A stretch of DNA of 64,000 nt from Arenibacter hampyeongensis (GTDB taxonomy: Bacteria > Bacteroidota > Bacteroidia > Flavobacteriales > Flavobacteriaceae), in contig NZ_PIOB01000001.1 of NCBI RefSeq assembly GCF_002909255.1, forward strand, positions 1,116,001-1,180,000, given 5' to 3'. This document shows, piece after piece, positions 17,704-35,365 of the stretch. Both the position numbers and the translations under genes were made by a program. A model generated the notes under the pieces. The model saw only the letters and a program-made list of their open reading frames with translations, searched no databases and was not told the origin of the DNA. Every line of letters begins with the position of its first letter. Position 1 is the stretch's first letter.

Positions 17704-19053
17704 TTAAAACAACAAGGTAAAGGTGGTGTACTTGTCAGGAATTGAATTCACCTTTAAATTGCCGCCGTGCATCCGTAATATCTGTTTGGATAGACTTAAC
17801 CCGACCCCCGTTCCGGAATTTTTAGTGGTGAAAAATGGGACAAAGATTTCGTTTATCAATTCTGCAGGTATACCAGGGCCATTGTCCTTTACCTCAATAT
17901 ATTTATGCCCTGATTTATTGATTCCGGCCATCAATTTTATGGAACTGTTTTTTTGCTGTTCCAGGGATTGGAGTGCATTTCTACACAAATTGATCAAGAC
18001 CTGGGTTATTTGTTTTTCATCAATAAAAAGTTCCAAGTCCTGGGTGTGCATTCGCATTTCAATGGACGTATTTGAAAATTCTTTGTCTTGCCCTACCAAT
18101 AATATTACTTTCTCCAATAAATTATGTACACGAACAATTTTTTTATCCGGCATAGGAACATTTAAAAAACTGCGGTATGATTGCACGAAACTCATTAAAT
18201 TAGTTCCTTGATCTTTTATCACTTCCAGGCCCTTTATGGTGTTTTCCAAACGTTTTTGATATACAGTTTCATCCACAAGGTTTTTGTCTGCCATCGTGTT
18301 ATATTTTAAAATGGAATCGGAAATGGAAGTTATTGGAGTGATGGAATTCATTATTTCATGGGTCAGAACCCTAATTAGCCTGGTCCAGGATTCGGTCTCT
18401 TTTTCGTCCAATTCCTGATGAATATCTTGGATGACCACCAATAACAATTCTTGTCCATCCATATTAAAGGAAGAGGACTTTATGGCCAAATCTATTTTCT
18501 CCCGTTCATTGGTCAATTGGAGCATTCGACGTTCAAATGGCTTTAATTCACTAAATATTTGATACAAATCCTCATCTACTTGCGTTAGTTGCTTAATGTG
18601 GTTAAGGGGTGTGTAATTCAGCATTTGTTCAATTCTGGGATTGGCAAAAAGAATATGTCCTTTACTATTGATAGCTAAAATACCTATATCCGCCTGTTTT
18701 AATATTTCTTGGTAGAACCGTTCTTGGGTCTGATTTTTTAAATGAATTTTTTGAATCATTTCATTGAGCATGTTAAGACTGTGATTTAGTTCTTCTAGAG
18801 ACTTAACACTCAATTTTTCTGGAAATCTAAGGGTGAAATCCTCATTTTTTATGGCATCAAAGAAATAGGCAATTTTTCTATTGGTTTCGTTAACATATCT
18901 GATTAAATGGTAGGTTTGAAATACAAGGATGGCCAGTGATAGGGCCGCAAGGACATACTTTTCCCTGTACAGGAGAAAGGCAATTAAAACTGCTGTAATG
19001 CTTATGAGCAGCACTCTGCCAATAGTCTGGAAATAGAAGTTTTTACTCACCAT
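17704..19053 (-). CDS. Membrane sensor histidine kinase, partner of the NtrC-type regulator
   Basis: The 449-residue kinase has two closely spaced transmembrane segments near the N-terminus, a HAMP-like linker, a PAS domain (ADIGILAINSKGHILFANPR) and a HisKA-like dimerisation domain. H232 (LTHEIMNSITPI) is the predicted phosphoacceptor. The ATPase domain shows the N box (LINLCRNALQSL), G1 (DNGPGIP) and G2 (NSGTGVGLSLSKQ). ATG at 19053 is chosen as start because it overlaps the regulator stop by 11 bases and begins just before the first membrane helix; longer frames would run deep into the regulator. It presumably phosphorylates the adjacent regulator in response to an envelope or periplasmic signal, and its short periplasmic loop suggests sensing within the membrane. 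Confidence 0.9.
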   Translation of the reverse strand: MVSKNFYFQTIGRVLLISITAVLIAFLLYREKYVLAALSLAILVFQTYHLIRYVNETNRKIAYFFDAIKNEDFTLRFPEKLSVKSLEELNHSLNMLNEMIQKIHLKNQTQERFYQEILKQADIGILAINSKGHILFANPRIEQMLNYTPLNHIKQLTQVDEDLYQIFSELKPFERRMLQLTNEREKIDLAIKSSSFNMDGQELLLVVIQDIHQELDEKETESWTRLIRVLTHEIMNSITPITSISDSILKYNTMADKNLVDETVYQKRLENTIKGLEVIKDQGTNLMSFVQSYRSFLNVPMPDKKIVRVHNLLEKVILLVGQDKEFSNTSIEMRMHTQDLELFIDEKQITQVLINLCRNALQSLEQQKNSSIKLMAGINKSGHKYIEVKDNGPGIPAELINEIFVPFFTTKNSGTGVGLSLSKQILRMHGGNLKVNSIPDKYTTFTLLF

Positions 19054-20416
19054 TTTTTTCCTGCTTTTTAATTTTATTGTACAGTGTTTGCCGAGAAATT
19101 CCCAATTGGGCAGCGGCGGCACTATAATTGCCATCATTGTTGTGCAGAGCGTTCAATATCATTATTTCCTCCATTTCCTCCAAAGTTTTTGGTAAGACCT
19201 CTGTTGTTGTCGAAGATTTGATATTCAATATAAAATCGGTAGGTTTTAGAATATTTCCTTCGCACAGGATCACTGCCCTTTCTAAGGTATGTTGTAGTTC
19301 CCGTACATTTCCCGGCCATGAATATTGTTTCAGCTTTTCTATGGCTACATCGTTTATTCGAATCCCATGTTTTGCATATTTGGCACTATATTTCTTTAAA
19401 TAAAAGTCAGCCAAGGTCAATATATCATCACCTCTGTCCCGAAGTGCGGGAACCTCTATATGGATGGTGTTAATGCGATACAGTAGATCTTCCCTAAACA
19501 GCCCATCCATTACCATTTGCTTTAAATTGCCATTGGTGGCGCAGACCAACCGTATATCTACGGGAATGGATTTGTTGGAACCTACACGTACAATTACCTT
19601 ATTTTGAATGGCCGAAAGCAATTTGGCCTGCATTTGTAGGGAAAGATTTCCAATTTCATCCAGAAACAGGGTGCCTCCATTAGCTGCTTCAAATTTGCCA
19701 ATTCTATCTTCCTTAGCGTCCGTAAAGGAACCTTTTAAGTGGCCAAATAGCTCGCTCTCAAATAGATTTTCTGAAATGGAACCCATATCTACCGCAATAA
19801 AAACTTCATTCTGTCTAGGGGATAATTTGTGGAGTTGTCGGGCAATAAGTTCTTTGCCAGTGCCATTTTCACCTGTGATCAGAACATTTACATCCGTTTT
19901 GGCTACTTTTTGGGTTAGATTTAATACGGAAGTCAAGGCCTTTGAATTTCCTATTATATAATTTTTGTCTTGGTTAATGACCTGTTTTAAGTTGCTTTCC
20001 TTTTGTTTTAAATGATTTATTTCTTTTTGGGATTTACGAAGCAAATAGGCAGCTTTCACAGTGGCCAAGAATTTATCGTTGTTCCAAGGTTTTAGGATAA
20101 AATCTGATGCGCCTTCTTTCAGGGCCTTGACCGCTAATTCTACGTCTCCGTAGGCGGTCATCATAATAACAGCGGTCAGTGGTGTTTTTTTCTTGATTTC
20201 CTTTAACCAAAAGAGACCTTCATTTCCGGAATTCACTCCGGCGGAAAAATTCATATCCAACAGAACAACATCAATTTTGTTTAAATCCGGAAAGGACGAT
20301 ATTTGATTGGGATTGGAAATTGTACTTATGTTCTTGTATTCAAACTGTAATAATATTTCCAGTGCACTCAAGACACTTTTGTTATCATCTATTACTAAAA
20401 TCTGCGCATCTACCAT
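19043..20416 (-). CDS. Sigma-54-dependent response regulator, NtrC family
   Basis: The 457-residue product has a receiver domain with acidic pocket D10-D11 and phosphoacceptor D54, an AAA+ domain with Walker A around K188 (GENGTGKE) and FLDEIGN, and a Fis-type helix-turn-helix at the C-terminus (NYSAAAAQLGISRQTLYNKI). The sigma-54 contact loop reads GSFTDA (229-234) instead of the classical GAFTGA. ATG at 20416 (MVDAQILVIDDN) is chosen; upstream in-frame ATGs would add an unusual tail before the receiver core. It is cotranscribed with the overlapping kinase and divergent from tolC. Two dyads at 20476-20514 are its probable binding sites, and a -24/-12-like sequence at 20577 its probable target promoter. 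Confidence 0.93.
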   Translation of the reverse strand: MVDAQILVIDDNKSVLSALEILLQFEYKNISTISNPNQISSFPDLNKIDVVLLDMNFSAGVNSGNEGLFWLKEIKKKTPLTAVIMMTAYGDVELAVKALKEGASDFILKPWNNDKFLATVKAAYLLRKSQKEINHLKQKESNLKQVINQDKNYIIGNSKALTSVLNLTQKVAKTDVNVLITGENGTGKELIARQLHKLSPRQNEVFIAVDMGSISENLFESELFGHLKGSFTDAKEDRIGKFEAANGGTLFLDEIGNLSLQMQAKLLSAIQNKVIVRVGSNKSIPVDIRLVCATNGNLKQMVMDGLFREDLLYRINTIHIEVPALRDRGDDILTLADFYLKKYSAKYAKHGIRINDVAIEKLKQYSWPGNVRELQHTLERAVILCEGNILKPTDFILNIKSSTTTEVLPKTLEEMEEIMILNALHNNDGNYSAAAAQLGISRQTLYNKIKKQEKNGE

Positions 20417-20475
20417 GATTATATCAAAATTGGTCATGTTAAAACTACAAAACCTGTTCTTTAAAATGTAAATAG

Positions 20476-20514
20476 TGTCCAACTATTGGACATTTATTGT
20501 ACAACTATTTTACA
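20476..20514. promoter_or_regulatory. Paired 17-bp dyads, candidate enhancer sites for the NtrC-type regulator
   Basis: Site 1 (20476-20492) is TGTCCAACTATTGGACA, with perfect 7-base arms and a 3-base centre. Site 2 (20498-20514) is TGTACAACTATTTTACA, sharing the centre CTA and 6 of 7 arm pairs. The centres are 22 bases apart, two helical turns, as expected for cooperative binding of enhancer-binding-protein dimers. They lie between the regulator gene and tolC, about 90-110 bases upstream of the -24/-12-like element's expected start. Confidence 0.65.
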
Positions 20515-20576
20515 TCAATATTTATTTAGTTTTAATATTAAGATGTAAATACGTGTAAATCAATTAATTGAGTATA

Positions 20577-20591
20577 TGGCACGAACTTGGA
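20577..20591 (+). promoter_or_regulatory. Candidate sigma-54 (-24/-12) promoter of the exporter operon
   Basis: TGGCACG (20577-20583) is a perfect -24 block. The -12 block is weaker: TTGG at 20587-20590, one base closer than usual and with G for the consensus C. Transcription would start near 20602, about 55 bases before the tolC-like ATG at 20658. The adjacent sigma-54 activator and paired upstream dyads support the call. Confidence 0.5.
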
Positions 20592-20657
20592 ATATGGTTG
20601 TAGGTCGACAGTTAATTCAATTATCAATATGAAGCCCTTTTTAATCGCATTTGCATT

Positions 20658-22004
20658 ATGAATTTTAAGAAAGGAAAATTATTTTTTATCCTATTTTTCA
20701 TCACCTTGAATGGTTTTGGTCAAGAGAACTGGACTTTGGACAATTGCATTTCCTATGCCTTAGATCATAATCTTACACTGAAGGATTATCAATATTTGGA
20801 AAATTCCGGCAAGGAAAGTTATAATCAGTCCCTAAGGGACCTTCTTCCTAGAGTGAACGGATTCGCCGATTATAATATTCGGTATGGCCGATCTACCGAT
20901 CCCAATACCAATGATATAATAAATACCGATTTCTTTTCCAATGGCTATTCCATGAGTGCTTCCATTGATCTTTTTGAAGGATTCCAAAAGATCAACACTA
21001 TCAAGGCAAGAAAACTATTGTTTAAAGCAAGCAAGGAAGCAGCACAACAACAAAGGTTCTTACTGGCTCTTAGGGTAATGACAGCTTACCATGACATTCA
21101 GTTTTATGAAGGTATATTGGCCATTTCAAAAGAGCAACTTTCCATTTCCGAGGCCAATTTTAAGCTTGCCAAAAAGCAAATTGAACTGGGGCTGAAGGCC
21201 GGGGCTGATTTGTATGAGGCGGAATCCATTCTGTACACGGATCAGTTGGATGTTACCCAAAGTGAAAACCAATTGCAGGCGGCCAAGCTAACCTTGATTC
21301 AGGAAATGAATTTGGATAATGCCCAAACCATCCAGTTAAACCCTGTTGTACCCAAAACGATTTCTGAAAACGAAATTGAAACGGATAGTATCTACGGAAA
21401 AGCAAAGGAATTTGTACCCCTTTTAAAGGCACAACATCTTAGAACGGAGGCGGCAAAAAAGGAACTGGGAATTGTTAGAGGAAGGCTTTACCCTTCACTT
21501 TCCTTTGCCACTGGCTATGGTACCGGATATTACGAAACTACTAGGGATACTTTGGGCGTCACCATTCCATTTAAAACTCAAATTGAGGACAATGCCTCCA
21601 GATTTATAGGTTTTTCCCTTAATGTTCCCATTTTTAATGCCTGGTCCACGCGGTCTGCCATAAAGCAGCAGAAAATAGCCTTGGGAAGGGAACAAAATAA
21701 TCTAAAAATACAGGAACAGGAAATATATAAGGCCATACAACAATTGGTACAGGAAAATAAGGCCTTAAATGTTGAAATTATACAAAGTGAAAAACAAATT
21801 ATGGCCCAGGAACAGGCTTTTGGAGTGGCACAAAAAAAATATGAAAAGGGATTGTTTACCATTATGGAGCTGAATCTTGCAAAATCGATGTACGCCACTT
21901 CCCAAAATAAAAATTTACAGGTAAAACTGCAACTTCAAATTAACCAAAATACACTGTCTTTTTACCAAGGCTTACCTATTTTTAACATTAACAGCACCAA
22001 TTAA
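20658..22004 (+). CDS. TolC-family outer-membrane efflux protein
   Basis: The 448-residue outer-membrane channel subunit has a signal peptide of about 20 residues (ending NGFGQ) and then the typical opening WTLDNCISYALDHNLTL. Long amphipathic coiled-coil helices with two internal OEP repeats follow (for example ISEANFKLAKKQIELGLKAGADLYEAES near 155-182 and the equivalent AQKKYEKGLFTIMELNLAKSMY near 395-416). TolC trimers form the exit duct for tripartite pumps. It is the first gene of the exporter set; the adaptor gene starts 1 base after its stop. Regulation by the divergent sigma-54 activator is likely. Confidence 0.93.
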   Translation: MNFKKGKLFFILFFITLNGFGQENWTLDNCISYALDHNLTLKDYQYLENSGKESYNQSLRDLLPRVNGFADYNIRYGRSTDPNTNDIINTDFFSNGYSMSASIDLFEGFQKINTIKARKLLFKASKEAAQQQRFLLALRVMTAYHDIQFYEGILAISKEQLSISEANFKLAKKQIELGLKAGADLYEAESILYTDQLDVTQSENQLQAAKLTLIQEMNLDNAQTIQLNPVVPKTISENEIETDSIYGKAKEFVPLLKAQHLRTEAAKKELGIVRGRLYPSLSFATGYGTGYYETTRDTLGVTIPFKTQIEDNASRFIGFSLNVPIFNAWSTRSAIKQQKIALGREQNNLKIQEQEIYKAIQQLVQENKALNVEIIQSEKQIMAQEQAFGVAQKKYEKGLFTIMELNLAKSMYATSQNKNLQVKLQLQINQNTLSFYQGLPIFNINSTN

Positions 22005-22005
22005 A

Positions 22006-23256
22006 ATGGATATACAATTAGAAAAGAAGAAAGGATTGAGACCAAAACACTATGGGTACATCGCCCTTGGCGTTTTGTTGCTCTTTGTGGGATGGAAAAT
22101 GTTAACGGCAAGTGTGGGCAACACTTTTAGAACCGAAAAGGACAAACTGTCCATTGCTGAGGTTGTTCAGGGGAAATTTGACGATTATATAACCATCAAT
22201 GGTACCGTGGCGCCGATTGCTACCATTTATATGGATGCTTATGAAGGCGGGCGTGTAACCGAAAAACTAATTGAGGAAGGAGCTATGGTACAAAAGGGCG
22301 ATATCATTCTTAAGTTGGATAACATTGGCCTTTATGAGCAAATATTGAATAGTGAAAGCAATTTGGCCTTAAAGCAGAACGACCTTAGGTCTACCAAATT
22401 AACCTTCGATTCCAGACAGGTAGAAGGCAGAAAATCCTTGGCTACTGCTAGGACGGAATTGCAACGTTTGAAAAGAAATTTTGAGCAGAACCAAGCGCTT
22501 TATGACGATGAATTAATTTCTAAGGAAGTGTATTTGACCTCAAAAGAGAACTATGAACTTTCAGAAAAACAATATGATATTGTAAAAGTACAAACAGACA
22601 ATGATGACGAACTGAGAAAAACTTCCTTGCCTGTCTTGGAGGCCGATTTAAACCGTATGCAAAAAACTTTGGGCATGGTCTATCAGCGCTTAGACCATTT
22701 GAACGTAAGGGCACCGGCAGATGGACAACTGGGGTTTTTGGATGCCGAAATAGGTCAGAATATTAGTCAAGGTCAACGAATTGGGCAAGTAAATGTGCTA
22801 ACAGATTATAAGATCGAAGCGGATATAGATGAACATTATATAGATCGTGTAAAACGAGACTTAAATGCAAGTTTTGAGCGCAATGGAACGGAACATAGGC
22901 TAAGGTTGAGAAAGGTATATCCGGAAGTGCGAAATGGCAAGTTCAAGATAGATTTGGTTTTCACTGGTGAAAAGCCACAAAACATTCGGGCCGGGCAAAG
23001 TTATAATATAAAACTTCAGTTGGGGGAATCCAGTGATGCGCTCTTGCTGCCCAAGGGAAGTTTTTTCCAAAGTACCGGCGGACAATGGATTTTTGTGGTT
23101 AGCCCTGATGGTGACCAGGCATTGAAGCGAAATATAAAAATAGGAAAACAAAACTCCAGATTTTATGAAGTGTTGGAAGGATTGGAAAATGGTGAAAAAG
23201 TAATTACATCCAACTATGATAGTTTTGGAGATGCGGATAATATAGTGCTGAAATAG
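22006..23256 (+). CDS. Periplasmic adaptor (HlyD/MacA-type membrane-fusion protein)
   Basis: The 416-residue protein has one N-terminal transmembrane helix (about 18-36), a lipoyl half-motif (YEGGRVTEKLIEEGAMVQKGDIILKLD), a long coiled-coil hairpin (about 115-225), the second lipoyl half (LNVRAPADGQLGFLDAEIGQNISQGQ) and a C-terminal beta-barrel. It links inner-membrane ABC permeases to the TolC channel. Its ATG comes 1 base after the tolC stop, so translation is probably coupled. A 147-base gap with a repeat fragment separates it from the ATPase gene, but they are most likely parts of one pump. Confidence 0.92.
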   Translation: MDIQLEKKKGLRPKHYGYIALGVLLLFVGWKMLTASVGNTFRTEKDKLSIAEVVQGKFDDYITINGTVAPIATIYMDAYEGGRVTEKLIEEGAMVQKGDIILKLDNIGLYEQILNSESNLALKQNDLRSTKLTFDSRQVEGRKSLATARTELQRLKRNFEQNQALYDDELISKEVYLTSKENYELSEKQYDIVKVQTDNDDELRKTSLPVLEADLNRMQKTLGMVYQRLDHLNVRAPADGQLGFLDAEIGQNISQGQRIGQVNVLTDYKIEADIDEHYIDRVKRDLNASFERNGTEHRLRLRKVYPEVRNGKFKIDLVFTGEKPQNIRAGQSYNIKLQLGESSDALLLPKGSFFQSTGGQWIFVVSPDGDQALKRNIKIGKQNSRFYEVLEGLENGEKVITSNYDSFGDADNIVLK

Positions 23257-23403: not shown

Positions 23404-24099
23404 ATGATACAAATACAAAATCTTAACAAAAGCTTTAGGACCGAAGAGGTAGAAACTTTGGCACTGAACAATGTGAACCTTAAAGTTCAAGAAGGGGAAT
23501 TCGTAGCCATAATGGGGCCATCTGGCTGTGGCAAATCCACTTTATTGAATATTATAGGTATGTTGGACAACCCTACTTCCGGGAGTTATCAATTCGCTGG
23601 CCACGAAGTTGGGCATTTAAAAGAAAATCAACGTACCCAACTGCGAAAAGGGAATCTAGGCTTCGTCTTCCAGAGTTTTAATTTGATTGATGAACTCACC
23701 GTCTTCGAAAATGTGGAATTGCCTTTGATCTACCTTAAAATGAATAAAAATGAGCGAAAGCAAAAGGTGATGGCCGTATTGGAACGGATGAAAATAGCAC
23801 ATCGTGAAAAGCACTTTCCACAACAACTCTCAGGAGGTCAGCAACAACGTGTTGCAATTTCAAGGGCCGTTGTCACAAATCCAAAGTTGATTTTGGCGGA
23901 TGAGCCCACGGGAAATCTGGATTCCAAAAACGGAATCGAAGTGATGAACCTGTTGACAGAACTAAATCAGGAAGGTACCACTATAGTGATGGTAACCCAC
24001 TCGGATCGGGATTCCCACTATGCACATCGCATTGTGAATCTCTTTGATGGTCAGATTGCCACCGAAAGCCATAATAGGGCTATGGGGGCATTGATGTAG
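23404..24099 (+). CDS. ABC transporter ATPase, MacB/LolD type
   Basis: The 231-residue nucleotide-binding subunit has all family motifs: Walker A GPSGCGKST (about 38-46), Q-loop FVFQSFN, signature LSGGQQQRVA (about 142-151), Walker B LILADEPTG, D-loop NLDS and H-loop MVTHSD. This class energises mechanotransmitting FtsX-fold permeases rather than classic transport channels. It follows the adaptor gene and precedes the four permease genes, and is probably the main ATPase for them. A second ATPase at 34703 differs at key positions. GAAACCTGCAAGG-type repeats start 26 bases after the stop. Confidence 0.95.
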   Translation: MIQIQNLNKSFRTEEVETLALNNVNLKVQEGEFVAIMGPSGCGKSTLLNIIGMLDNPTSGSYQFAGHEVGHLKENQRTQLRKGNLGFVFQSFNLIDELTVFENVELPLIYLKMNKNERKQKVMAVLERMKIAHREKHFPQQLSGGQQQRVAISRAVVTNPKLILADEPTGNLDSKNGIEVMNLLTELNQEGTTIVMVTHSDRDSHYAHRIVNLFDGQIATESHNRAMGALM

Positions 24100-24347: not shown

Positions 24348-26777
24348 ATGTTTAAAAATCACATCAAAATTGCGTGGAGAAGTCTTAAAAGACAGCCCTT
24401 TTTCGCATTCCTAAATACGTTTGGCCTGGCCATTGGCATGGCCGGAGGACTGCTCATATCTTTATACATCTACGATGAAATGAATTTTGATACGATGTTC
24501 AAAGATGCCGATCGTATTTATAGAATAAATGCAGATATAAAATTTGGTGGAACGGAGAGTAAATCCGCACAAGTTTCAGCACCAATGGCTGCAGCAATGG
24601 AAAGCGATTTTTCACAGGTGGAACTAACTACTAGATTTAGGAATTTGGGCGGTATGCTCCTCAGAAAGAGTAATACGGAAGCCAACATAAAGGAAGAAGG
24701 TGCAACCTTTGTGGATGCTACTTTCTTTGAGATGTTCGGTCTTGACCTGTTGGTAGGGGATATGCAAACCGCCCTAAAAGAACCCAACACCTTGGTCCTG
24801 ACCAGGACGGCAGCCCTGAAACATTTCGGTTTAAAAAAAGCTATAGGTCAAAGTTTGGTATTGAACAATACCGATACCTATACGGTAACCGGGGTAATAG
24901 AGGATATGCCAGAGCGATCATTTCTAAGAAATCACAACGTTTTTATGGCAATGGCAGGGAATGAAGACGCACAAAAGCAGGAATGGACCAGCCATAATTT
25001 CTTTACTTTTATTAAACTAATACCGGGTGCCGATATTGCCGATTTTCAGACACCCTTACAGTCCATGCTCGGCACATATATAATGCCGTATGTACAGACA
25101 TTTCTGCCAGGTGCAACCGAAGAACAGTTGGAGGCCTCTGGTAATTATCTGTATTATGGCACTATAGCTTTGAAGGATATACATCTGTATTCTGCCAAAG
25201 ACCATGAACTTAGCCCGAACAGCAGTATCCAAAATGTCTACATTCTTTCATTTATAGGTTTGTTCCTGATTTTATTGGCCAGCGTTAATTTTATGAACTT
25301 GTCAACGGCACAGTCCCTTAAACGGGCAAAAGAAGTGGGTATTCGTAAAACCTTGGGGTCGGATAAACCTGCCTTGATACGACAATTTTTGACCGAATCG
25401 GGTTTAATTTCCTTCATCTCCCTTTTGTTTTCCTTGGGCATAGCAGTAGTGGCCATCCCTTATTTTAATGCACTTTCCGGGAAGTCCATTTCCATACCAT
25501 TTACCGAACCTGTTTTCTGGATGGCCTTATTTATTGGGGCTACGGTTTTAGCTCTCTTTTCTGGAATGTATCCTGCATTCTTTATGTCGCGTTTTGCGCC
25601 GGTGAAGGTGCTAAAGGGAGCAGGAGCAACTAGTACCGGAGGAGGAAATATTAGAAGTTTGCTTGTGGTATTCCAATTTGCTATTTCCGTGTTTTTAATA
25701 GTAAGTACTTTGGTCGTCTTTATGCAATTGAAGTTCATTCAAAGTAAAGATCTGGGTTTTACAAAAGATCAGGTTTTGATTGTTGACGATGTATATACAT
25801 TGGGAGAAAAGGCCACGGCTTTTAAGGAGCAGGTAGAGCAACTTGGCCAAGTGCAAAGTGCAACATTGAGTAGTTTTTTACCAACACCATCCGTCCGAAG
25901 TAATACCTCTTTTTTTAAGGAAGGGGGGGCAACGGCGGAAAATTCCATCAATATGCAGATATGGAATGTTGACGATAATTATATCCCCACTTTGAATATG
26001 GAAATCCTGGAGGGCAGGAATTTTGATAGACAGTTTGGTACCGACTCTACGGCTATGCTCATCAACGAGTCGGCGGTCGCCATTTTGGGAGTGCAGGCCA
26101 AAGAGGCCTTGGGAATGCGAATTATTCGCAATTTTGAAAATGGGAGTTCCAATAATTTTACAATTATTGGTGTAATCAAAAATTTTAATTATGAATCGCT
26201 CAGGGAAAATATTGGTGCCGTGAGCATGACTTTGGGAAGGTCTACCGGTTCTTTGGCTGTAAAACTTGAGGCTGGGAATTTTTCAAACTCAATTTCAAGT
26301 ATTGAAGGGATATGGAACAAAGTGGCACCGGGACAACCTTTCAGCTATCGATTTATGGAGGACTCCTTTAATACCACCTATGAAGCAGAGCAGCAGTTAG
26401 GACGTATTTTCGTGACCTTTACTATACTGTCCATTTTAATCGCATGCCTTGGATTGTTTGGCCTAGCGGCCTTCAATGCTCAAAAACGCACCAAGGAGAT
26501 AGGCATCCGAAAAGTGTTGGGCGCCAGTATCGGCCAAATAACTTATCGCCTCACGACCGACTTTTTAAAAATGGTAGGGGTAGCCATTATTGTTTCGCTG
26601 CCCGTTGGCTGGTACTTAATGAACAAGTGGCTCGAGGACTTTACCTATAGAATAGAAATTAGTTGGTGGGTGTTTGCCTTTGCAGCGCTAATTGCACTCA
26701 CCATAGCGGTACTAACTGTAAGCTACCAAAGTATTAAGGCGGCCATCGTAAATCCGGTAAAAAGTTTACGAACCTAG
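24348..26777 (+). CDS. ABC transporter permease, FtsX/MacB type, array member 1
   Basis: The 809-residue protein is a duplicated FtsX/MacB permease: an N-terminal helix, a large periplasmic MacB_PCD-like domain, three helices around residues 285-430 (FMNLSTAQSLKRAKEVGIRK marks the coupling region), then a second periplasmic domain and three more helices with GLAAFNAQKRTKEIGIRKVL near the end. ATG at 24348 (MFKNHIKIAWRSL) is chosen since all four array members start with this motif; a longer frame would read through the repeat block at 24125-24249. It ends NPVKSLRT, as do its paralogues. It probably works with the ATPase at 23404 and the TolC/HlyD pair. The substrate is unknown; peptide or lipid export, or antimicrobial-peptide resistance, are options. 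Confidence 0.92.
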   Translation: MFKNHIKIAWRSLKRQPFFAFLNTFGLAIGMAGGLLISLYIYDEMNFDTMFKDADRIYRINADIKFGGTESKSAQVSAPMAAAMESDFSQVELTTRFRNLGGMLLRKSNTEANIKEEGATFVDATFFEMFGLDLLVGDMQTALKEPNTLVLTRTAALKHFGLKKAIGQSLVLNNTDTYTVTGVIEDMPERSFLRNHNVFMAMAGNEDAQKQEWTSHNFFTFIKLIPGADIADFQTPLQSMLGTYIMPYVQTFLPGATEEQLEASGNYLYYGTIALKDIHLYSAKDHELSPNSSIQNVYILSFIGLFLILLASVNFMNLSTAQSLKRAKEVGIRKTLGSDKPALIRQFLTESGLISFISLLFSLGIAVVAIPYFNALSGKSISIPFTEPVFWMALFIGATVLALFSGMYPAFFMSRFAPVKVLKGAGATSTGGGNIRSLLVVFQFAISVFLIVSTLVVFMQLKFIQSKDLGFTKDQVLIVDDVYTLGEKATAFKEQVEQLGQVQSATLSSFLPTPSVRSNTSFFKEGGATAENSINMQIWNVDDNYIPTLNMEILEGRNFDRQFGTDSTAMLINESAVAILGVQAKEALGMRIIRNFENGSSNNFTIIGVIKNFNYESLRENIGAVSMTLGRSTGSLAVKLEAGNFSNSISSIEGIWNKVAPGQPFSYRFMEDSFNTTYEAEQQLGRIFVTFTILSILIACLGLFGLAAFNAQKRTKEIGIRKVLGASIGQITYRLTTDFLKMVGVAIIVSLPVGWYLMNKWLEDFTYRIEISWWVFAFAALIALTIAVLTVSYQSIKAAIVNPVKSLRT

Positions 26778-26976: not shown

Positions 26977-29376
26977 ATGTTTAAGAACTATCTAAAAATC
27001 GCTTGGAGGAACTTATGGAAAAATAAGGGCTATTCCGTAATAAATGTTGGCGGGCTTGCCTTGGGAATGGCGGTTACGCTCATAATTGGTCTCTGGATCC
27101 AAGATGAACTTAGCCATAACAGTTATTTTAAAAACAAAGACAGTATTGCACAAGTGTTCCAATCACAAACGTTTAACCAAGAAACGGGTACGGGCCCCGC
27201 TATACCCAGACCCTTGGAAAAAGCGTTACGGGACGGTTATGCAGATAACTTTAAGCATTTGGTAATGTCTTCGTGGAACATTTCCAGATATCTTCGATAC
27301 AAAGAGAAAAGTCTTTCCAAAAAAGGAAATTTTATGCAGCGGGAAGCTCCTGAAATGTTGGATTTAAAAATTGTAAAAGGGGAGAAAGATGGCTTGCGAG
27401 AACTAAATTCCGTAATGCTGTCCGAATCGGTCGCCTATGCGCTTTTTGGTAATGAGGAACCTATTGGTAAAACCTTACAAGTAAACAATCAATATGATGT
27501 AATGGTGAGTGCGGTATATGAGGATATTCCTTTTAATAATTCATTTCATGATGTCGAATTCCTAATGCCATGGGACAAAATGATAGCGACCCAAGAATGG
27601 ATGAAAAATGCTGAAGATCAATGGGGAAACAACTCCTTTCAGATGTTCGTTCAGATTGCTGACAATTCCACAATGGAAAAAGTTACCGAGGCCATTCTGA
27701 ATGTGAAAAAGAATTTAAACGAGGATACGGCGGAATTCAATCCACAAATATTTCTTTTTCCAATGAAAGATTGGTACTTACGAGGCAATTTCGAAAACGG
27801 GGAGCAAGTTGGTGGCCGTATAAAATATGTGTGGCTATTCGGAATAATTGGAGCCTTTGTTTTGCTATTGGCTTGTATAAATTTCATGAACCTGAGTACG
27901 GCCAGGTCCGAAAAAAGGGCCAAGGAAGTGGGGATTCGAAAATCCATTGGCTCACAAAGAAATCAATTGATCAACCAGTTTTTGAGCGAATCTTTCTTAG
28001 TGGTATTGTTTGCGTTTATTATTGCTGTGATGATTGTTTTATTGTCCATGAACGGATTCAACGATTTATCCAAAAAGGAAATTTCGTTCCCATGGAATAG
28101 CACTGTTTTTTGGGTTGTCTCATGGGTGTTTATAACGATTACGGCTTTGGTGGCAGGTAGCTATCCGGCACTTTACCTGTCTTCTTTTAGACCGGTAGAT
28201 GTATTAAAAGGAACCTTCAAATCTGGAAAATATGCCGGATTGCCCAGAAAAATTTTGGTAGTACTACAGTTTACCGTTTCCGTGGCCTTTATTATTGGAA
28301 CCGTCATAGTAATGCAACAGATCAATTATGCCAAAAACCGACCAGTGGGGTATGATAAAGCTGGCCTTGTTCAGATACCTACCTTCAGTCAAGATTTTGA
28401 AGGTAAATATGACTTAATGCGAAGCGAATTTTTAAATTCAGGTGCGGTAATCGAAATGTCGGCTTCCAGCAGCCCAACCACGCAGATTTGGTCCAACCGC
28501 AGTGGATTTGATTGGGAAGGCAAGCCCGAAGGTTTTCAAGAGGATTTGGCATGGACCGAAGTAACTCCGGAATACGCTAAGTCTTTAGGTATGGAAATTG
28601 TTGAAGGCCGAGATTTTTCAAGGGAGTTCGCTACCGATTCAAACGCTGTGTTGATCAATCGGACCGCAGTAAAATACATGGGGATCAAGGATCCCGTTGG
28701 CAAGTTTTTAAAAGACGATGATGAAGAAGATCCAGGTCCACCCTTAAAAATTATTGGTGTTGTAGAAGACATGATTACGCAATCGCCCTATGAACCTGTA
28801 AAGCAGGGTGTTTATGTTTTTGATAAACACGGCAATTCCAGTTTCTATAATTTAAGATTGAATCCAAATCAAAGTGTAGGTCAGAACATGGGAACTATTG
28901 AAAGTGTGTTCAAAGAACATTTTCCTGGCCTTCCTTTTCAATATGATTTTGTAGATGATGAATACGGCGAAAAATTTGCTGCTGAAGAACGCATTGGAAC
29001 CTTATCTGGGATTTTTACGGCACTGGCCATTTTAATAAGTTGTCTTGGCCTATTCGGACTTACCTCATTTGTAGCGGAACAGCGTACCAAGGAAATAGGG
29101 GTCCGGAAGGTTCTGGGAGCCACTGTATTCAATGTGTGGAACATGCTTTCCAAAGATTTTTTAAAACTGGTAATCATTTCTTGTTTTATAGCCATACCTA
29201 TTTCGTACTACGTTATGAACGGCTGGCTGCAAGACTATCCATACCATGTAATCTTGGAGTGGTGGATCTTCGCTTTGGCCGTTATTGGATCGTTGGCGAT
29301 TACCATTCTAACCGTGAGTTTTCAGGCCATTAAAGCGGCTAATGCCAATCCGGTAAAAAGCTTGCGAACGGAGTGA
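26977..29376 (+). CDS. ABC transporter permease, FtsX/MacB type, array member 2
   Basis: The 799-residue paralogue of its neighbours starts MFKNYLKIAWRNLWKNKGYS. It has the same double FtsX/MacB plan: FMNLSTARSEKRAKEVGIRKSIG in the first coupling helix (about residues 303-325) and LTSFVAEQRTKEIGVRKVLGA in the second (about 703-723), ending NPVKSLRTE. The large periplasmic segments (about 45-280 and 470-660) differ most between members, suggesting different cargo or partners. The bases after its stop (GAGTGAGAAAGT, then heptad repeats) resemble those after permease 1, a sign that gene and downstream spacer were duplicated together. Confidence 0.92.
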   Translation: MFKNYLKIAWRNLWKNKGYSVINVGGLALGMAVTLIIGLWIQDELSHNSYFKNKDSIAQVFQSQTFNQETGTGPAIPRPLEKALRDGYADNFKHLVMSSWNISRYLRYKEKSLSKKGNFMQREAPEMLDLKIVKGEKDGLRELNSVMLSESVAYALFGNEEPIGKTLQVNNQYDVMVSAVYEDIPFNNSFHDVEFLMPWDKMIATQEWMKNAEDQWGNNSFQMFVQIADNSTMEKVTEAILNVKKNLNEDTAEFNPQIFLFPMKDWYLRGNFENGEQVGGRIKYVWLFGIIGAFVLLLACINFMNLSTARSEKRAKEVGIRKSIGSQRNQLINQFLSESFLVVLFAFIIAVMIVLLSMNGFNDLSKKEISFPWNSTVFWVVSWVFITITALVAGSYPALYLSSFRPVDVLKGTFKSGKYAGLPRKILVVLQFTVSVAFIIGTVIVMQQINYAKNRPVGYDKAGLVQIPTFSQDFEGKYDLMRSEFLNSGAVIEMSASSSPTTQIWSNRSGFDWEGKPEGFQEDLAWTEVTPEYAKSLGMEIVEGRDFSREFATDSNAVLINRTAVKYMGIKDPVGKFLKDDDEEDPGPPLKIIGVVEDMITQSPYEPVKQGVYVFDKHGNSSFYNLRLNPNQSVGQNMGTIESVFKEHFPGLPFQYDFVDDEYGEKFAAEERIGTLSGIFTALAILISCLGLFGLTSFVAEQRTKEIGVRKVLGATVFNVWNMLSKDFLKLVIISCFIAIPISYYVMNGWLQDYPYHVILEWWIFALAVIGSLAITILTVSFQAIKAANANPVKSLRTE

Positions 29377-29627: not shown

Positions 29628-32111
29628 ATGCTAAAAAATCATCTAAAAATTGCCTTACGATTCTTTTTAAGGAACAAATTGTTTACGGGTATCAATGTCT
29701 TAGGCCTTTCCATTGGAATTACGGCATTTATCCTGTTGACGCAGTACATCACATTCGAAAAAAGCTATGATACCTTTATCCCTGATGTAGATGACCTATA
29801 TAGGGTTACCCTGACTACAAATTTGGGCGATAATGGATTTGTTACTTCAGCAACAAATCATCCTATGACAGGCCGGGCAATGCTATCAGATTTTCCGGAA
29901 GTTGAAAGTTATACCCGTATTGCTGATAAACCAATGGCATTTTCAGGCACTATGAATATTTCATATACCAATACACTAGGTGACGAAATAAAATCTGATG
30001 CCAATGATGATCATATTTATTTTGCTGATAATGCAATTATCAATCTTTTCGATTTACAATTCATTCAAGGTGATGCCGCAACTGCACTCAATGAACCTAC
30101 CTCTGTAATTCTGAGTGAGAAAATAGCCCATCGCTTTTTCGGGAATGAAGACCCAATTGAAAAAATGATAGAGGTCAATGATAATTTTAAATTGAAGGTA
30201 ACCGGTGTTTTTAAAGAACGGCCAGACAATACGCACTTACCTATGGGTATGATTGTTTCCTATAACATCTTCGGACCAAATGGCGATCATGCGAACAGTT
30301 GGGTATGGCCAGAATTTTACAATTATATTAAGCTAAAACCGGGAACAAGTCAGAAGACCGTAGAAGCTAAGTTTCCGGGATTCGTAAAAAAATATTTGGG
30401 GGATATTATGATCGAGCACGGGTTTGAAGCAAAAATGGCATTGCAACCTGTTAAGGACATTCATTTAAAATCACACTTATTAAAAGAGATTTCTGCCAAC
30501 AACAGTGAAGGTACCTTGTACTTTTTATTGATCGTAGCAGGTTTTATAATTGCAATCGCTATGATTAATTTCATCAACCTATCTACTGCCAAATCAATGG
30601 AGCGCGCTAAAGAAGTCGGTATTAAAAAGGTGGTTGGCGCCCCTAGATCGATACTTATACATCAATTTCTATTTGAATCGCTCCTCATTAATTTTTTTGC
30701 AGTTATCATAGCATTTGTACTGATCAATTTGTTGATTCCCTCTTTTAATTCATTGGTCGGAATAGAGGTTTTAAACTTTGGAATGTGGGGTGAATGGCAA
30801 GTCTGGTTGGCCATGATAGGTATATTTCTTATAGGAGGAGTATTAGCAGGCCTTTACCCGGCCTTTGTATTGTCCGGTTTTGTACCTATTGAAGTTCTTC
30901 GAGGTAAGTTTCATAAAACAACAAAAGGAAATACACTTCAAAAGACTTTGGTAGTTTCTCAATTTGCCATTTCAATAGCGCTTATTGCGGGAACTTACAT
31001 TGTTTATAACCAATTCTCATACATGCAAAACCAGGACCTTGGTTTCAACGCTGAGCAAAATCTTGTCTTTGCTGCACCAACTTATGCTGATTCAACCACC
31101 CAACTGAAAGTTGAATCTTTTAAGCGGGAACTGATTCAAAACCCAAGAATCAATAGTGTCGCCTTGTCTGATGAAATACCAGGAAAGCCAATTGTACAAG
31201 GGAATACCATAAGACAGGTGCATAAACCAATAGAGTTGGGGGTCAGTGCCAATTTCGTAATTATAGATCAAGATTTTATAAAAACCTACAACATTGATCT
31301 CTTGGCAGGAAGAGATTTTGTGAAGGAAGATACCAGCTCACTGTATACGAGGGAAGGTCCAGTTCCGTCCGGTCATAGGGTCCTGATCAACCGTTCGGCG
31401 GCAAGAATATTGGGGTTTTCGGACCCTGAAGCGGCTATCAACAAAAAGATGATTTTTAAGTATGGCCCAATTGATAGAACAGCCGACATAATCGGAGTGG
31501 TGGAAGACCATCATCAACAATCGCTTCAAAAAGGGTACGATCCAATTGTCTTCATGAATCTCATGGGCTACGGAGTCTCGTTTGTAACTGTAAATATTGC
31601 AGCTGGTAATATTCCTGAAACCACAGGCCAAATAGAGTCCAAATTCAAAGAGTTTTTTCCAAACGATTTGTACAACTCCTTTTTTATGGATGACTATTTT
31701 AATCGGCAGTACCAGGCCGAATCGAAATTCGGGATTATCTGTTTGGTGTTTTCATTGTTGGCAATTTTTATTGCGGCATTGGGACTATTCGGTCTGGGAT
31801 CGCATATGGCCATGCAAAAGACCAAAGAGATAAGTATACGGAAAGTTATGGGTGCCACTGTGGTACAGGCCTTGGCAATAATTCCAAGTAAATTGCTTAG
31901 CCTGGTGCTGCTATCGGGGGCAATTGCCTTACCGATCATCTATTTTGTCACTAAAAAATGGTTGGAAAAATATGCCTTCAAAATTGAACTTAATATATGG
32001 ATGTTCGCATTGCCACTCTTGGTAGTGCTACTGGTAGCAGCATTGTCCATCCTCTCTCAATCATTTAAAACGGCAATGGTCAACCCGGCAGAATCCTTGA
32101 GAAACGAATGA
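29628..32111 (+). CDS. ABC transporter permease, FtsX/MacB type, array member 3
   Basis: The 827-residue double FtsX/MacB permease is a more diverged member: it starts MLKNHLKIALRFFLRNK and has FINLSTAKSMERAKEVGIKK in the first coupling region and SHMAMQKTKEISIRKVMGA in the second, ending NPAESLRNE. ATG at 29628 is chosen because it aligns with the conserved start of the other permeases; an in-frame TTG/ATG further upstream would put a G-rich repeat in the protein. The next permease follows after 25 bases with no repeat array, unlike the gaps after members 1 and 2. Confidence 0.92.
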   Translation: MLKNHLKIALRFFLRNKLFTGINVLGLSIGITAFILLTQYITFEKSYDTFIPDVDDLYRVTLTTNLGDNGFVTSATNHPMTGRAMLSDFPEVESYTRIADKPMAFSGTMNISYTNTLGDEIKSDANDDHIYFADNAIINLFDLQFIQGDAATALNEPTSVILSEKIAHRFFGNEDPIEKMIEVNDNFKLKVTGVFKERPDNTHLPMGMIVSYNIFGPNGDHANSWVWPEFYNYIKLKPGTSQKTVEAKFPGFVKKYLGDIMIEHGFEAKMALQPVKDIHLKSHLLKEISANNSEGTLYFLLIVAGFIIAIAMINFINLSTAKSMERAKEVGIKKVVGAPRSILIHQFLFESLLINFFAVIIAFVLINLLIPSFNSLVGIEVLNFGMWGEWQVWLAMIGIFLIGGVLAGLYPAFVLSGFVPIEVLRGKFHKTTKGNTLQKTLVVSQFAISIALIAGTYIVYNQFSYMQNQDLGFNAEQNLVFAAPTYADSTTQLKVESFKRELIQNPRINSVALSDEIPGKPIVQGNTIRQVHKPIELGVSANFVIIDQDFIKTYNIDLLAGRDFVKEDTSSLYTREGPVPSGHRVLINRSAARILGFSDPEAAINKKMIFKYGPIDRTADIIGVVEDHHQQSLQKGYDPIVFMNLMGYGVSFVTVNIAAGNIPETTGQIESKFKEFFPNDLYNSFFMDDYFNRQYQAESKFGIICLVFSLLAIFIAALGLFGLGSHMAMQKTKEISIRKVMGATVVQALAIIPSKLLSLVLLSGAIALPIIYFVTKKWLEKYAFKIELNIWMFALPLLVVLLVAALSILSQSFKTAMVNPAESLRNE

Positions 32112-32136: not shown

Positions 32137-34554
32137 ATGATTAAAAATTATCTAAAAATAGCGTGGCGAAGCATTAAAAGTGATAAGCTCTTCACCTTTA
32201 TTAAGGTCGGTGGTTTTGCCATGGGCATTGCAGCATGTCTGTTAATAGCCTTATTCATCGGCGATGAACTTGGTTATGATCAACAATACAAAAACAAGGA
32301 CCGTATTTATCGGGTTGTTTTGCAGGGTTTTATGGACGGTGAAATTAGAAAGAGTGTCCATTTTCAATTGCCTTTTGCGGATGCCCTACAATCCGATTTT
32401 CCAGAAATTGAGAAGGCTGGTAAAATAAACATGAGCGAGCTCTTTGGCGCTGGCAAACGAGGATTGCGTTTGGTAGGTGAATCGCAAAACAATTTTGAGG
32501 ACGGATTTGTATTTGCCAACCAGAACATCCTTGAGATTCTTGAGATTTCCTTGGAGCAGGGAAACTCGAAAGAAGCATTATTGCAACCTGGGAATATTGT
32601 GATTTCCAAATCCAAGGCAGATAAATACTTCCCAAATGGGGATGCCTTGGGCAAGTCCATTGTGTTGGATGACAATACGTCAAGGCCTTATACTATTACC
32701 GGCGTAATGCCGGATTTTCCCAAAAATTCCCATCTCCAGTTTAATTTTCTGTTACCCATAGAGGATACCAATATGAGCTGGACCAATCAGAATTATTTCA
32801 CCTATGTTCTCGTGGACGAAAATGCCAGTATTCCGGCATTGGAGAAAAAAATGTTTTCCATTATGGAAAACTACATAATCCCAGCCCAATTGGCTTATGG
32901 TCGTGACCCAGCTTTTATCCAAGTCCTGAAAACAATTGAATATAAGTTGCAACCAATTGCCGATATACATTTACGATCAGATCTTGCCATGGGGGATGGT
33001 CTAAAACATGGTGATATTAGGTTTGTTTGGCTATTTGGAGCCATAGCAGGGTTTATTTTATTATTGGCCTGTATCAATTTCATTAACCTTACTACCGCCA
33101 AATCGGCCAATAGGGCAAAGGAAGTGGGATTGCGTAAAACGGTTGGGGCTTATAAAAGTAATCTGGTTGCACAATTCCTTACCGAATCGGTACTGTACAG
33201 TCTAATCTCTTTTTTATTGGGGTTGATGTTGGCTTGGGCCTTGCTCCCTACCTTTAATGAAATTGCAGCAAAGTCCATTTTATTTCCCTGGGAGGTTGGG
33301 TGGTTTGTGCCCCTTATGGTAGCCTCCGCCCTGCTAATTGGGATTTTGGCAGGAATGTACCCTGCATTTTATCTCTCTTCCTTTAGACCTGTAAATGTGC
33401 TGAAAGGGAGCCTTAGTGTCGGCAGTAAAAGCGGAAATCTTAGAAGCGGATTGGTCGTGTTTCAGTTTGCTGCATCGGTAATCCTCATTATAGGGACACT
33501 GATCATCTACAAGCAAATGGATTATATCCTGAAAAAAGAACTGGGTTATGACAAAGAACAAGTGGTGATTTTGGAAGGGGCCAATATCTTGGGAAATAAT
33601 TCGGAAAGCTTTAAGGCTCAATTGTTACAGCTTCCTCATGTACAAAATGTAACAAAAAGTGATTATTTGCCGATCGATGGCGCAAAGAGAAATGGCAATA
33701 CTTTTAAAAAGGTGGGTGAGGGAATTGAAGATCGTGGGATTCCTGCCCAAGTTTGGCGAGTGGATTATGATTACATAAAAACATTGGGAGTGAAGGTAAA
33801 GGAGGGTAGGGATTTTTCCAGGGAATTTGCTTCCGACTCCATTAACTCGATGATTGTCAATGCTAAAATGGCCAAAGATCTCGGTTATGATAATCCTATA
33901 GGAAAGCATATAAACAATGGCAAGGACTGGAATATTGTGGGGGTGGTACAGGACTTTCACTTTAAATCCTTGAAAGAAGATATAAGCGCGCTTACCCTAG
34001 TTGTTGCAAACAATGACGTGGGTGCAATTTCCGTAAAACTTAAGACTGATAATATTGGGGAGACCTTGACATCCATGGAAACCATTTGGAACAAAAATGT
34101 TCCCAACCAAGCTTTTGCTTATTCTTTTTTAGACCAGAAATTTACTCAAATGCACGAGGATGTGCAGCGTATGGGAAAAATATTCAACAGTTTTGCCTTG
34201 TTTGCTATTCTAGTAGCTTGTTTAGGACTGTTTGCACTTTCCGCCTTTATGGTGGAACAGCGAAAAAAGGAAATAAGTATTCGGTTGGTTTTAGGGGCTC
34301 CTTTTGAAAGTATCTATAAACTATTGACATTGGATTTTTTAAAGTTGATTGTTATTGCCATACTTATTGCGATACCTATAGGATGGTATATGATGAACCG
34401 ATGGTTGGAGGATTTTGCCTATAAGGTAGATATTGGATGGGAGATATTCCTGAGTGCAGGTGGGATTGCCTTGGTCATTGCGGTAGCGACCATTAGCTAC
34501 CAATCTATAGGGGCGGCATTGATCAAACCCTTGAAAAGTCTAAGGACGGAGTAA
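32137..34554 (+). CDS. ABC transporter permease, FtsX/MacB type, array member 4
   Basis: The 805-residue double FtsX/MacB permease starts MIKNYLKIAWRSIKSDKL and has FINLTTAKSANRAKEVGLRKTVG in the first coupling region (about 310-332) and LSAFMVEQRKKEISIRLVLGA in the second, ending KPLKSLRTE. The second coupling motif has R-L-V where the other members have R-K-V. The gene closes the permease array; a second ATPase gene begins 148 bases later, so members 3-4 and ATPase 2 might form a separate transporter from members 1-2 and ATPase 1. That division is a guess from order only. Confidence 0.92.
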   Translation: MIKNYLKIAWRSIKSDKLFTFIKVGGFAMGIAACLLIALFIGDELGYDQQYKNKDRIYRVVLQGFMDGEIRKSVHFQLPFADALQSDFPEIEKAGKINMSELFGAGKRGLRLVGESQNNFEDGFVFANQNILEILEISLEQGNSKEALLQPGNIVISKSKADKYFPNGDALGKSIVLDDNTSRPYTITGVMPDFPKNSHLQFNFLLPIEDTNMSWTNQNYFTYVLVDENASIPALEKKMFSIMENYIIPAQLAYGRDPAFIQVLKTIEYKLQPIADIHLRSDLAMGDGLKHGDIRFVWLFGAIAGFILLLACINFINLTTAKSANRAKEVGLRKTVGAYKSNLVAQFLTESVLYSLISFLLGLMLAWALLPTFNEIAAKSILFPWEVGWFVPLMVASALLIGILAGMYPAFYLSSFRPVNVLKGSLSVGSKSGNLRSGLVVFQFAASVILIIGTLIIYKQMDYILKKELGYDKEQVVILEGANILGNNSESFKAQLLQLPHVQNVTKSDYLPIDGAKRNGNTFKKVGEGIEDRGIPAQVWRVDYDYIKTLGVKVKEGRDFSREFASDSINSMIVNAKMAKDLGYDNPIGKHINNGKDWNIVGVVQDFHFKSLKEDISALTLVVANNDVGAISVKLKTDNIGETLTSMETIWNKNVPNQAFAYSFLDQKFTQMHEDVQRMGKIFNSFALFAILVACLGLFALSAFMVEQRKKEISIRLVLGAPFESIYKLLTLDFLKLIVIAILIAIPIGWYMMNRWLEDFAYKVDIGWEIFLSAGGIALVIAVATISYQSIGAALIKPLKSLRTE

Positions 34555-34702: not shown

Positions 34703-35365
34703 ATGCTACTACAACTTAATAACATTTTTAAATGGGTAAACTCAGGGGGGCAACGTATCTTCCTCTTAAAGGATATTAACCTCAATGTGGAAGAAGGGGA
34801 GTTTATTTCGATTATGGGACCCTCAGGTTCGGGTAAATCCACACTGCTCAATGTCATTGGCATGTTGGATAATTTTGATGAAGGGGAATACAGTTTTTTG
34901 GATGAGCCCGTTCACACCTTAAAAGAAAAACATCGCGCCAATTTGTACAAACAATATATTGGCTTTGTTTTTCAATCCTACCATCTATTGGATGACCTTA
35001 CAGTAAAGGAAAATCTGGAAATGCCCTTGCTGTATAAGAAAGTGGGCAGCTCTGAACGTAAATCCTTGGTGGCCGATACTTTGGACCGTTTTAATATTGT
35101 TGGAAAGAAAGACCTTTTTCCTTCACAGCTGAGTGGTGGACAGCAGCAATTGGTAGGCGTTGCACGTGCACTGATCTCATCTCCTAAGCTTATTCTTGCA
35201 GATGAACCTACAGGGAATTTAAACTCCAAGCAAGGGGAGGAAATCATGGGTCTTTTTAAACAATTGAATAGTGAAGGGGTCACTATAATTCAGGTGACAC
35301 ACTCAGAAAAAAATGCTACCTATGGCTCGCGTATAATAGATTTGTTGGATGGGAGAAAAATATAG
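34703..35365 (+). CDS. ABC transporter ATPase, second copy, with divergent signature and D-loop
   Basis: The 220-residue nucleotide-binding subunit has Walker A GPSGSGKST (about 39-47), a Q-loop (FVFQSYH), Walker B LILADEPTG and H-loop QVTHSE intact. The signature reads LSGGQQQLVG, where the usual residue after QQQ is Arg, and the D-loop reads NLNS instead of NLDS. ATPase 1 at 23404 is canonical at both sites. The changes could lower the hydrolysis rate or belong to a subfamily paired with certain permeases. It lies after the four-permease array, so it is probably a transporter component. It is followed by an unrelated membrane-protein gene with its own candidate promoter. Confidence 0.93.
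   Translation: MLLQLNNIFKWVNSGGQRIFLLKDINLNVEEGEFISIMGPSGSGKSTLLNVIGMLDNFDEGEYSFLDEPVHTLKEKHRANLYKQYIGFVFQSYHLLDDLTVKENLEMPLLYKKVGSSERKSLVADTLDRFNIVGKKDLFPSQLSGGQQQLVGVARALISSPKLILADEPTGNLNSKQGEEIMGLFKQLNSEGVTIIQVTHSEKNATYGSRIIDLLDGRKI

Follow-up and report, generated by a model that had tools for sequence, protein, structure and literature searches.

Sigma-54 promoters controlled by NtrC-family proteins such as NtrC, ZraR and AtoC are characterised by GG-N10-G spacing, paired upstream dyads and an activator composed of receiver, AAA+ and Fis domains, all of which are shared by the locus described here. A dyad pair phased by 22 bp upstream of a -24/-12 promoter is a typical activator layout. 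Amongst exporters, the closest described are the MacA-MacB-TolC systems and fused permeases such as YbbP, which, according to the portion of the source available, share with this locus TolC, an adaptor, a MacB-like periplasmic core and FtsX domains (PMC5985334). In Bacteroidia, COG0577 permeases are enriched among predicted sigma-54 targets, as stated in the available part of one study (PMC12316311). The available part of a start-site map of Flavobacterium psychrophilum shows that a -24/-12 motif, SM4, was mapped in this flavobacterium; the SM4 targets listed there, a selection, are chaperones, gliding genes and exported proteins, together with some others (PMC9723704).

We analysed a stretch of 64,000 nucleotides from the marine bacterium Arenibacter hampyeongensis (the window), in which an intergenic region very probably forms an enhancer-sigma-54 promoter module that places a TolC-HlyD-ATPase pump and its permeases under two-component control.

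Layout of the locus and its intergenic region

The intergenic region comprises 241 bp of 73% A+T and separates a minus-strand regulator gene (19043-20416) from the plus-strand tolC gene, which begins at 20658. The features of the locus are as follows.

17704-19053, minus strand: sensor histidine kinase (PAS and HATPase_c, from domain matches)
19043-20416, minus strand: NtrC-type response regulator, 457 aa; receiver, AAA+ (GSFTDA loop) and Fis-type HTH (Pfam PF00072, PF00158, PF02954; PDB relatives NtrC1/ZraR)
20440-20447, minus strand: TAGTTTTA, which may be the -7 box of the divergent regulator gene; close to dyad 1 (conserved columns -35 to -28 relative to dyad 1)
20476-20492: predicted activator dyad 1, TGTCCAACTATTGGACA (TGTCCAA and TTGGACA around CTA), centre 20484
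20498-20514: predicted activator dyad 2, TGTACAACTATTTTACA, centre 20506, 22 bp from the centre of dyad 1
20577-20591, plus strand: predicted sigma-54 promoter, TGGCACGAACTTGGA; -24 element TGGCAC, -12 element T20588 G20589 G20590 A20591 (GG-N10-GA)
20602-20604, plus strand: predicted transcription start (about 20603), placed from the -12 position
20658-22004, plus strand: TolC-type outer-membrane channel (PF02321)
22006-23256, plus strand: HlyD/RND_mfp periplasmic adaptor (PF13437; TIGR01730 above its cut-off)
23404-24099, plus strand: ABC ATPase 1 (PF00005)
24348-26777, plus strand: MacB/FtsX duplicated permease 1 (start 24348 picked by eye within an ORF listed from 24231)
26977-29376, plus strand: duplicated permease 2
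29628-32111, plus strand: duplicated permease 3 (start 29628 picked by eye within an ORF listed from 29592)
32137-34554, plus strand: duplicated permease 4
34703-35365, plus strand: ABC ATPase 2, at the end of the permease array

The original prediction, made from the sequence of the window, had placed an NtrC-type regulator/kinase pair beside a TolC-HlyD-ABC locus with multiple permeases, and the domain searches bear this out. The regulator possesses all three domains of the NtrC-family architecture, the kinase carries PAS and HATPase_c domains, and TolC, the adaptor, two ATPases and four permeases follow downstream in a row of genes that ends at 35365. The kinase gave no PF00512 HisKA match at E 0.001, and a HEIMNSITP sequence is recognisable in it by eye. 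Each permease is of about 800 aa and of the duplicated MacB/FtsX type; the ADOP model TIGR03434, which has a cut-off of 622 bits, scores permeases 1, 2 and 4 at 318, 297 and 298 bits and permease 3 at 273 bits. RpoN is encoded in the same genome (PF04552 at G000:C24, 174 bits).

The two 17-bp dyads, with centres 22 bp apart, are present exactly as first described. Measured from their centres, the distances are 119 and 97 bp to the predicted start at about 20603 and roughly 94 and 72 bp to the -24 GG, values that replace the earlier enhancer-promoter spacing of about 90-110 bases. In 5000 first-order Markov shuffles of the intergenic region, a dyad pair at 22 bp was uncommon (p 0.011), as was TGGCA[CT]-N5-TnG (p 0.0046), and a search of all 5.43 Mb of the genome for the dyad pair gave a single place with 0 mismatches. 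From the window alone, the evidence for a predicted module is modest.

Conservation of the module and the register of the predicted promoter

A scan of genome contigs yielded 75 loci encoding relatives of the regulator, among them an Arenibacter record that matches it at 100%. The close set, at 73% identity or above, held 47 of these, all recorded as members of the Flavobacteriaceae/Flavobacteriia except L083, recorded as a Bacteroidia bacterium; L063 was dropped for having too little upstream DNA, leaving 46 orthologs (11 from Arenibacter and 35 others). Alignment of the intergenic regions, the comparison that the original prediction had proposed as its check, found the dyads, their 22-bp phase, the GGCA block and a spacing of 63-65 nt kept in 46/46. 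The dyad pair (TGT-N11-ACA) matches in 12/12 outer letters in 38 orthologs and in 11/12 in the other 8, and the distance from dyad 2 to GGCA is 64 nt in 29, 63 in 16 and 65 in one. Amongst the 35 orthologs from outside Arenibacter, 23 of the 39 dyad columns reach 1.3 bits, versus 4 of the first 58 spacer columns. A strict composite pattern was found at the expected place in 45 of the 75 loci, and at one other place in 1.38 Mb. Because this comparative evidence is decisive, we regard the dyad/promoter module as more than a chance arrangement.

Of the 28 more distant homologs, seven match the pair in at least 11 of its 12 letters (L094, L100, L104, L107, L108, L114 and L123), and most of these have a TGG block about 53-66 nt further on; in the remaining 21 the pair was not detected at this threshold. 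In one of the 46 close loci, L092 from Maribacter halichondriae, the recorded regulator frame ends after 84 codons; dyads and promoter are kept.

The orthologs also fixed the register of the promoter. TGGCACG (20577-20583) and TTGG (20587-20590) are both present as originally read; however, TTGG as the -12 element is off by one base, since it would give GG-N9-GG, one base too close, and the relatives keep GG-N10-G. The register in the window is therefore GG at 20578-20579, N10, then G20590 and A20591. GG at -25/-24 and the GGCA block occur in 46/46 orthologs, and T(-15) and G(-13), the eleventh and thirteenth positions from the first G of GGCA, are likewise invariant in 46/46. The flanking bases depart from the textbook TTGC, and do so systematically across orthologs: the -12 base is C in 14/46, A in 17, T in 13 and G in 2, with A20591 in the window in place of the consensus C, and the consensus T at -14 occurs in 0/46 (A in 28, G in 15, C in 3). 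C at -12 is a consensus preference of sigma-54 promoters and not an absolute rule. Validated sigma-54 promoters that depart strongly from consensus exist, according to the available part of one study (PMC12316311). We predict that the window promoter functions in the manner of a sigma-54 promoter, its -12 element being non-consensus. With this one-base correction, the sigma-54 switch originally proposed is supported by ortholog conservation, the presence of RpoN and the receiver-AAA+-Fis regulator.

A second TGGCA lies exactly 23 nt past the first, over the predicted start (about 20600), in 25 of the 35 non-Arenibacter orthologs; it lies at 24 nt in 2 more and is absent from 8, and the 11 Arenibacter loci contain one, at 25 nt. 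We considered a second sigma-54 promoter at this repeat and rejected it, as its own -12 columns have no conserved G. Across 2.06 Mb of the window genome, crude gene calls had 74 TGGCA[CT] sites ahead of them, too noisy a set for a logo. Eleven TGGCA[CT]-N5-TnG sites precede a gene by no more than 300 nt. One of these, the sigma-54-like TTGGCATATTTTTGGC near position 108850 of contig C23, stands upstream of a gene that we take, by eye, to be dnaK. In the available part of the F. psychrophilum map, dnaK is tabulated among the SM4 (sigma-54) promoters (PMC9723704).

Module copies, predicted binding protein and permease expansion

In the Flavobacteriaceae genome NBU2977, a second complete module precedes another permease of the same cluster, 8.9 kb from the regulator start and again with 64 nt from dyad 2 to the -24 GG. 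We searched 299 Flavobacteriaceae genomes on DNA alone for the dyad pair, N63 and TGGCA with at most one mismatch, and found matches in 34 genomes at 55 places. The reversed pattern matched in 3/299 genomes, once each. A wrong-spacing control (N67) matched in 5/299, and since at least three of these show the same kind of dyad pair, they need not be chance. The window genome is absent from the N63 matches because its own spacing is N62; with N62, the whole 5.43 Mb gave one place with 0 mismatches, the next best having 2, and the reversed control gave 6 places at up to 3 mismatches. No further copies were found in this genome at 0 or 1 mismatch with N62 across the whole sequence, nor with N63 at up to one mismatch. 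A weight-matrix scan of 2.06 of the 5.43 Mb returned the window site as the sole place at 18 bits or above (two adjacent offsets), and the reversed sequence returned none.

The count of target genes covered 48 of the 55 places, all distinct (53 rows, five duplicate loci dropped). Twenty-two lie before tolC, 19 directly before a MacB/FtsX-type permease and one before an ATPase; the other six are none of these, three being the dyad pair read backwards (L257, L278 and L311), one standing opposite a 209-codon open frame (L258) and two preceding other proteins (L294 and L269). The module-like site at L269 (G226:C25) has a TnG promoter and precedes a secreted-looking protein that comparison with the window proteins does not identify as a pump part. 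T(-15) and G(-13), to which the search pattern was blind, occur together at 43 of the 48 places; of the 42 places that precede pump genes, 41 have both.

These results bear on the proposal that the dyads mainly serve the regulator's own promoter, in autoregulation or repression, with tolC transcribed from a different promoter and the TGGCAC block being something else. Dyad 1 does lie near the conserved -7-like box of the minus-strand regulator, TAGTTTTA, for which the Bacteroidota -7 consensus TAnnTTTG, from the available part of one source, provides a comparison (PMC7366714), and autoregulation of the regulator gene is possible on this sequence. However, modules with the same dyad-GGCA spacing precede permease genes far from the regulator, and the invariance of T(-15) and G(-13) likewise argues against it; as the main role of the dyads, we consider this proposal improbable.

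We compared the recognition helix of the regulator with the dyads in the window and 18 Flavobacteriaceae-family orthologs. The helix RQTLYNK (nine loci, eight of them with upstream DNA, window included) accompanies TGT[AC]..ACA 17-bp dyads in 8/8, and R[AT][AS]LYRR (ten loci) accompanies TCGAACA-type dyads, seven by script and three by eye from a half-site (L013, L015 and L021). Amongst the distant loci, L094 (RQTLYNK) and L107, L108 and L114 (RTALYRR) fit these classes. Because helix class covaries with dyad class, the adjacent regulator is tied to the dyads by their sequences. It could instead be argued that another regulator, such as a dimeric repressor, binds the conserved dyads, with the NtrC-type protein active elsewhere: a dyad of this size is generic, binding by the NtrC-type protein is a prediction, and three distant loci sort uncleanly, namely L099 and L100, with the intermediate helix RQTLYRK, and L105, with RGALYRR and weak dyads. 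The covariation across the family orthologs examined stands against this, as does the position of a dyad pair, phased by 22 bp, ahead of a -24/-12 promoter, and we hold such a binder to be very unlikely. Chance resemblance in an A+T-rich intergenic region, to which the shuffles lend something in that a single dyad of such quality is unremarkable there (p 0.30), is already contradicted by conservation in 46/46 orthologs and by recurrence before matching genes, and is almost certainly wrong.

The loop of the regulator reads GSFTDA in place of GAFTGA. Amongst the 75 relatives, 62 have GA/SFTDA, six have other forms and seven gave no motif match; the GA/SFTDA loci include L105 and L109 from Parabacteroides, whose candidate promoters read TTGT.

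The sigma-54 switch that we favour would work as follows. The histidine kinase (17704-19053), as expected from its family, would phosphorylate the NtrC-type regulator, an oligomer of which would bind both dyads, two helical turns apart and centred some 97 and 119 bp before the start. With ATP hydrolysis, the regulator would then remodel and open the RNA polymerase-sigma-54 waiting at TGGCACGAACTTGGA, and one long transcript would run from near 20603 through tolC, hlyD, the ATPase gene, four permease genes and the second ATPase gene. In relatives, copies of the module may allow the same activator to drive scattered permease genes as well.

To describe these permeases, we counted TIGR03434 matches above 200 bits by hand, adding one full-length 158-bit match in genome G018; weaker matches, some in long frames, occur in each genome and were left out of the counts. 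The window genome has four permeases, all within the window operon. In both G050 and G289, seven lie between ATPases 1 and 2, with one more elsewhere. In G018, 27 permeases stand in tandem over about 67 kb (C2:754170-821642), bracketed by two ABC ATPases, and 19 more lie elsewhere. The 46 orthologs served to train a weight matrix, which, applied upstream of these 19, found dyads with a promoter of at least 8 bits at 8/19, dyads with a weak promoter at 2/19 (dyads thus at 10/19) and an ambiguous site, about 3 kb off, at 1/19; no module was found for the remaining 8/19 in the roughly 0.7-2.6 kb examined, and the reversed sequence gave none with the same matrix. The 75-kb array region of G018 contains the tolC module only. 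Five scattered permeases directly behind modules, which were first found through those modules, have no homolog of the window ATPase in the roughly 4.5 kb examined downstream. Of the ATPases listed at E 1e-30 or better, a single one, C2:946351, which stands beside C2:948129, is found within 25 kb of any scattered permease.

The presence of the module before scattered pump parts in relatives suggests one master switch and, possibly, one pump chassis in common. From the distribution of permeases and ATPases, we tentatively propose that a single TolC-adaptor-ATPase chassis may be common to many duplicated permeases that are interchangeable, some of them scattered and lacking an adjoining ATPase, and that a single sigma-54 activator may fire copies of one dyad-promoter cassette, for a set that ranges from four in the window genome to 27 tandem and 19 scattered in G018.

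Comparison with known systems

Predicted sigma-54 control of COG0577 permeases and a sigma-54 motif in a flavobacterium had already been reported; the activator-dyad-exporter system and the scattered-permease regulon were absent from the literature matches listed. Judged by title and start of abstract, none of those matches concerns this exporter-regulator pair, which is not proof of absence from print, and the window's activator, dyads and exporter are absent from the available portions of the two sigma-54 studies (PMC12316311 and PMC9723704). The module provides a precise cis-element and a candidate regulator for a large, little-studied class of exporters in Bacteroidota, and predicts which scattered permeases belong together. 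It also makes testable the question of one ATPase powering many permeases, and offers a natural collection of sigma-54-type promoters that depart regularly from the -12 consensus.

Compared with the NtrC, ZraR and AtoC systems, the window differs in that the -12 C is not conserved, the -14 T is absent, the activator loop is GSFTDA and the regulator falls below the cut-offs of the 25 best NCBIfam models listed for it. The nearest named exporters for the window pump are darobactin DarBCD and MacB, with model cut-offs not reached. DarC and DarD provide the best NCBIfam models for the adaptor and the ATPases, respectively; however, the curated cut-offs are missed, with DarC at 205 versus 450 bits, DarD at 300 versus 375 and DarB at best at 182 versus 700. 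Unlike MacA-MacB-TolC and YbbP, as described in the available part of the source, the window system has its ATPase as a separate protein and its permease domains duplicated in one chain (PMC5985334), and it sets four permeases between two ATPases, a number that reaches 27 in tandem in G018.
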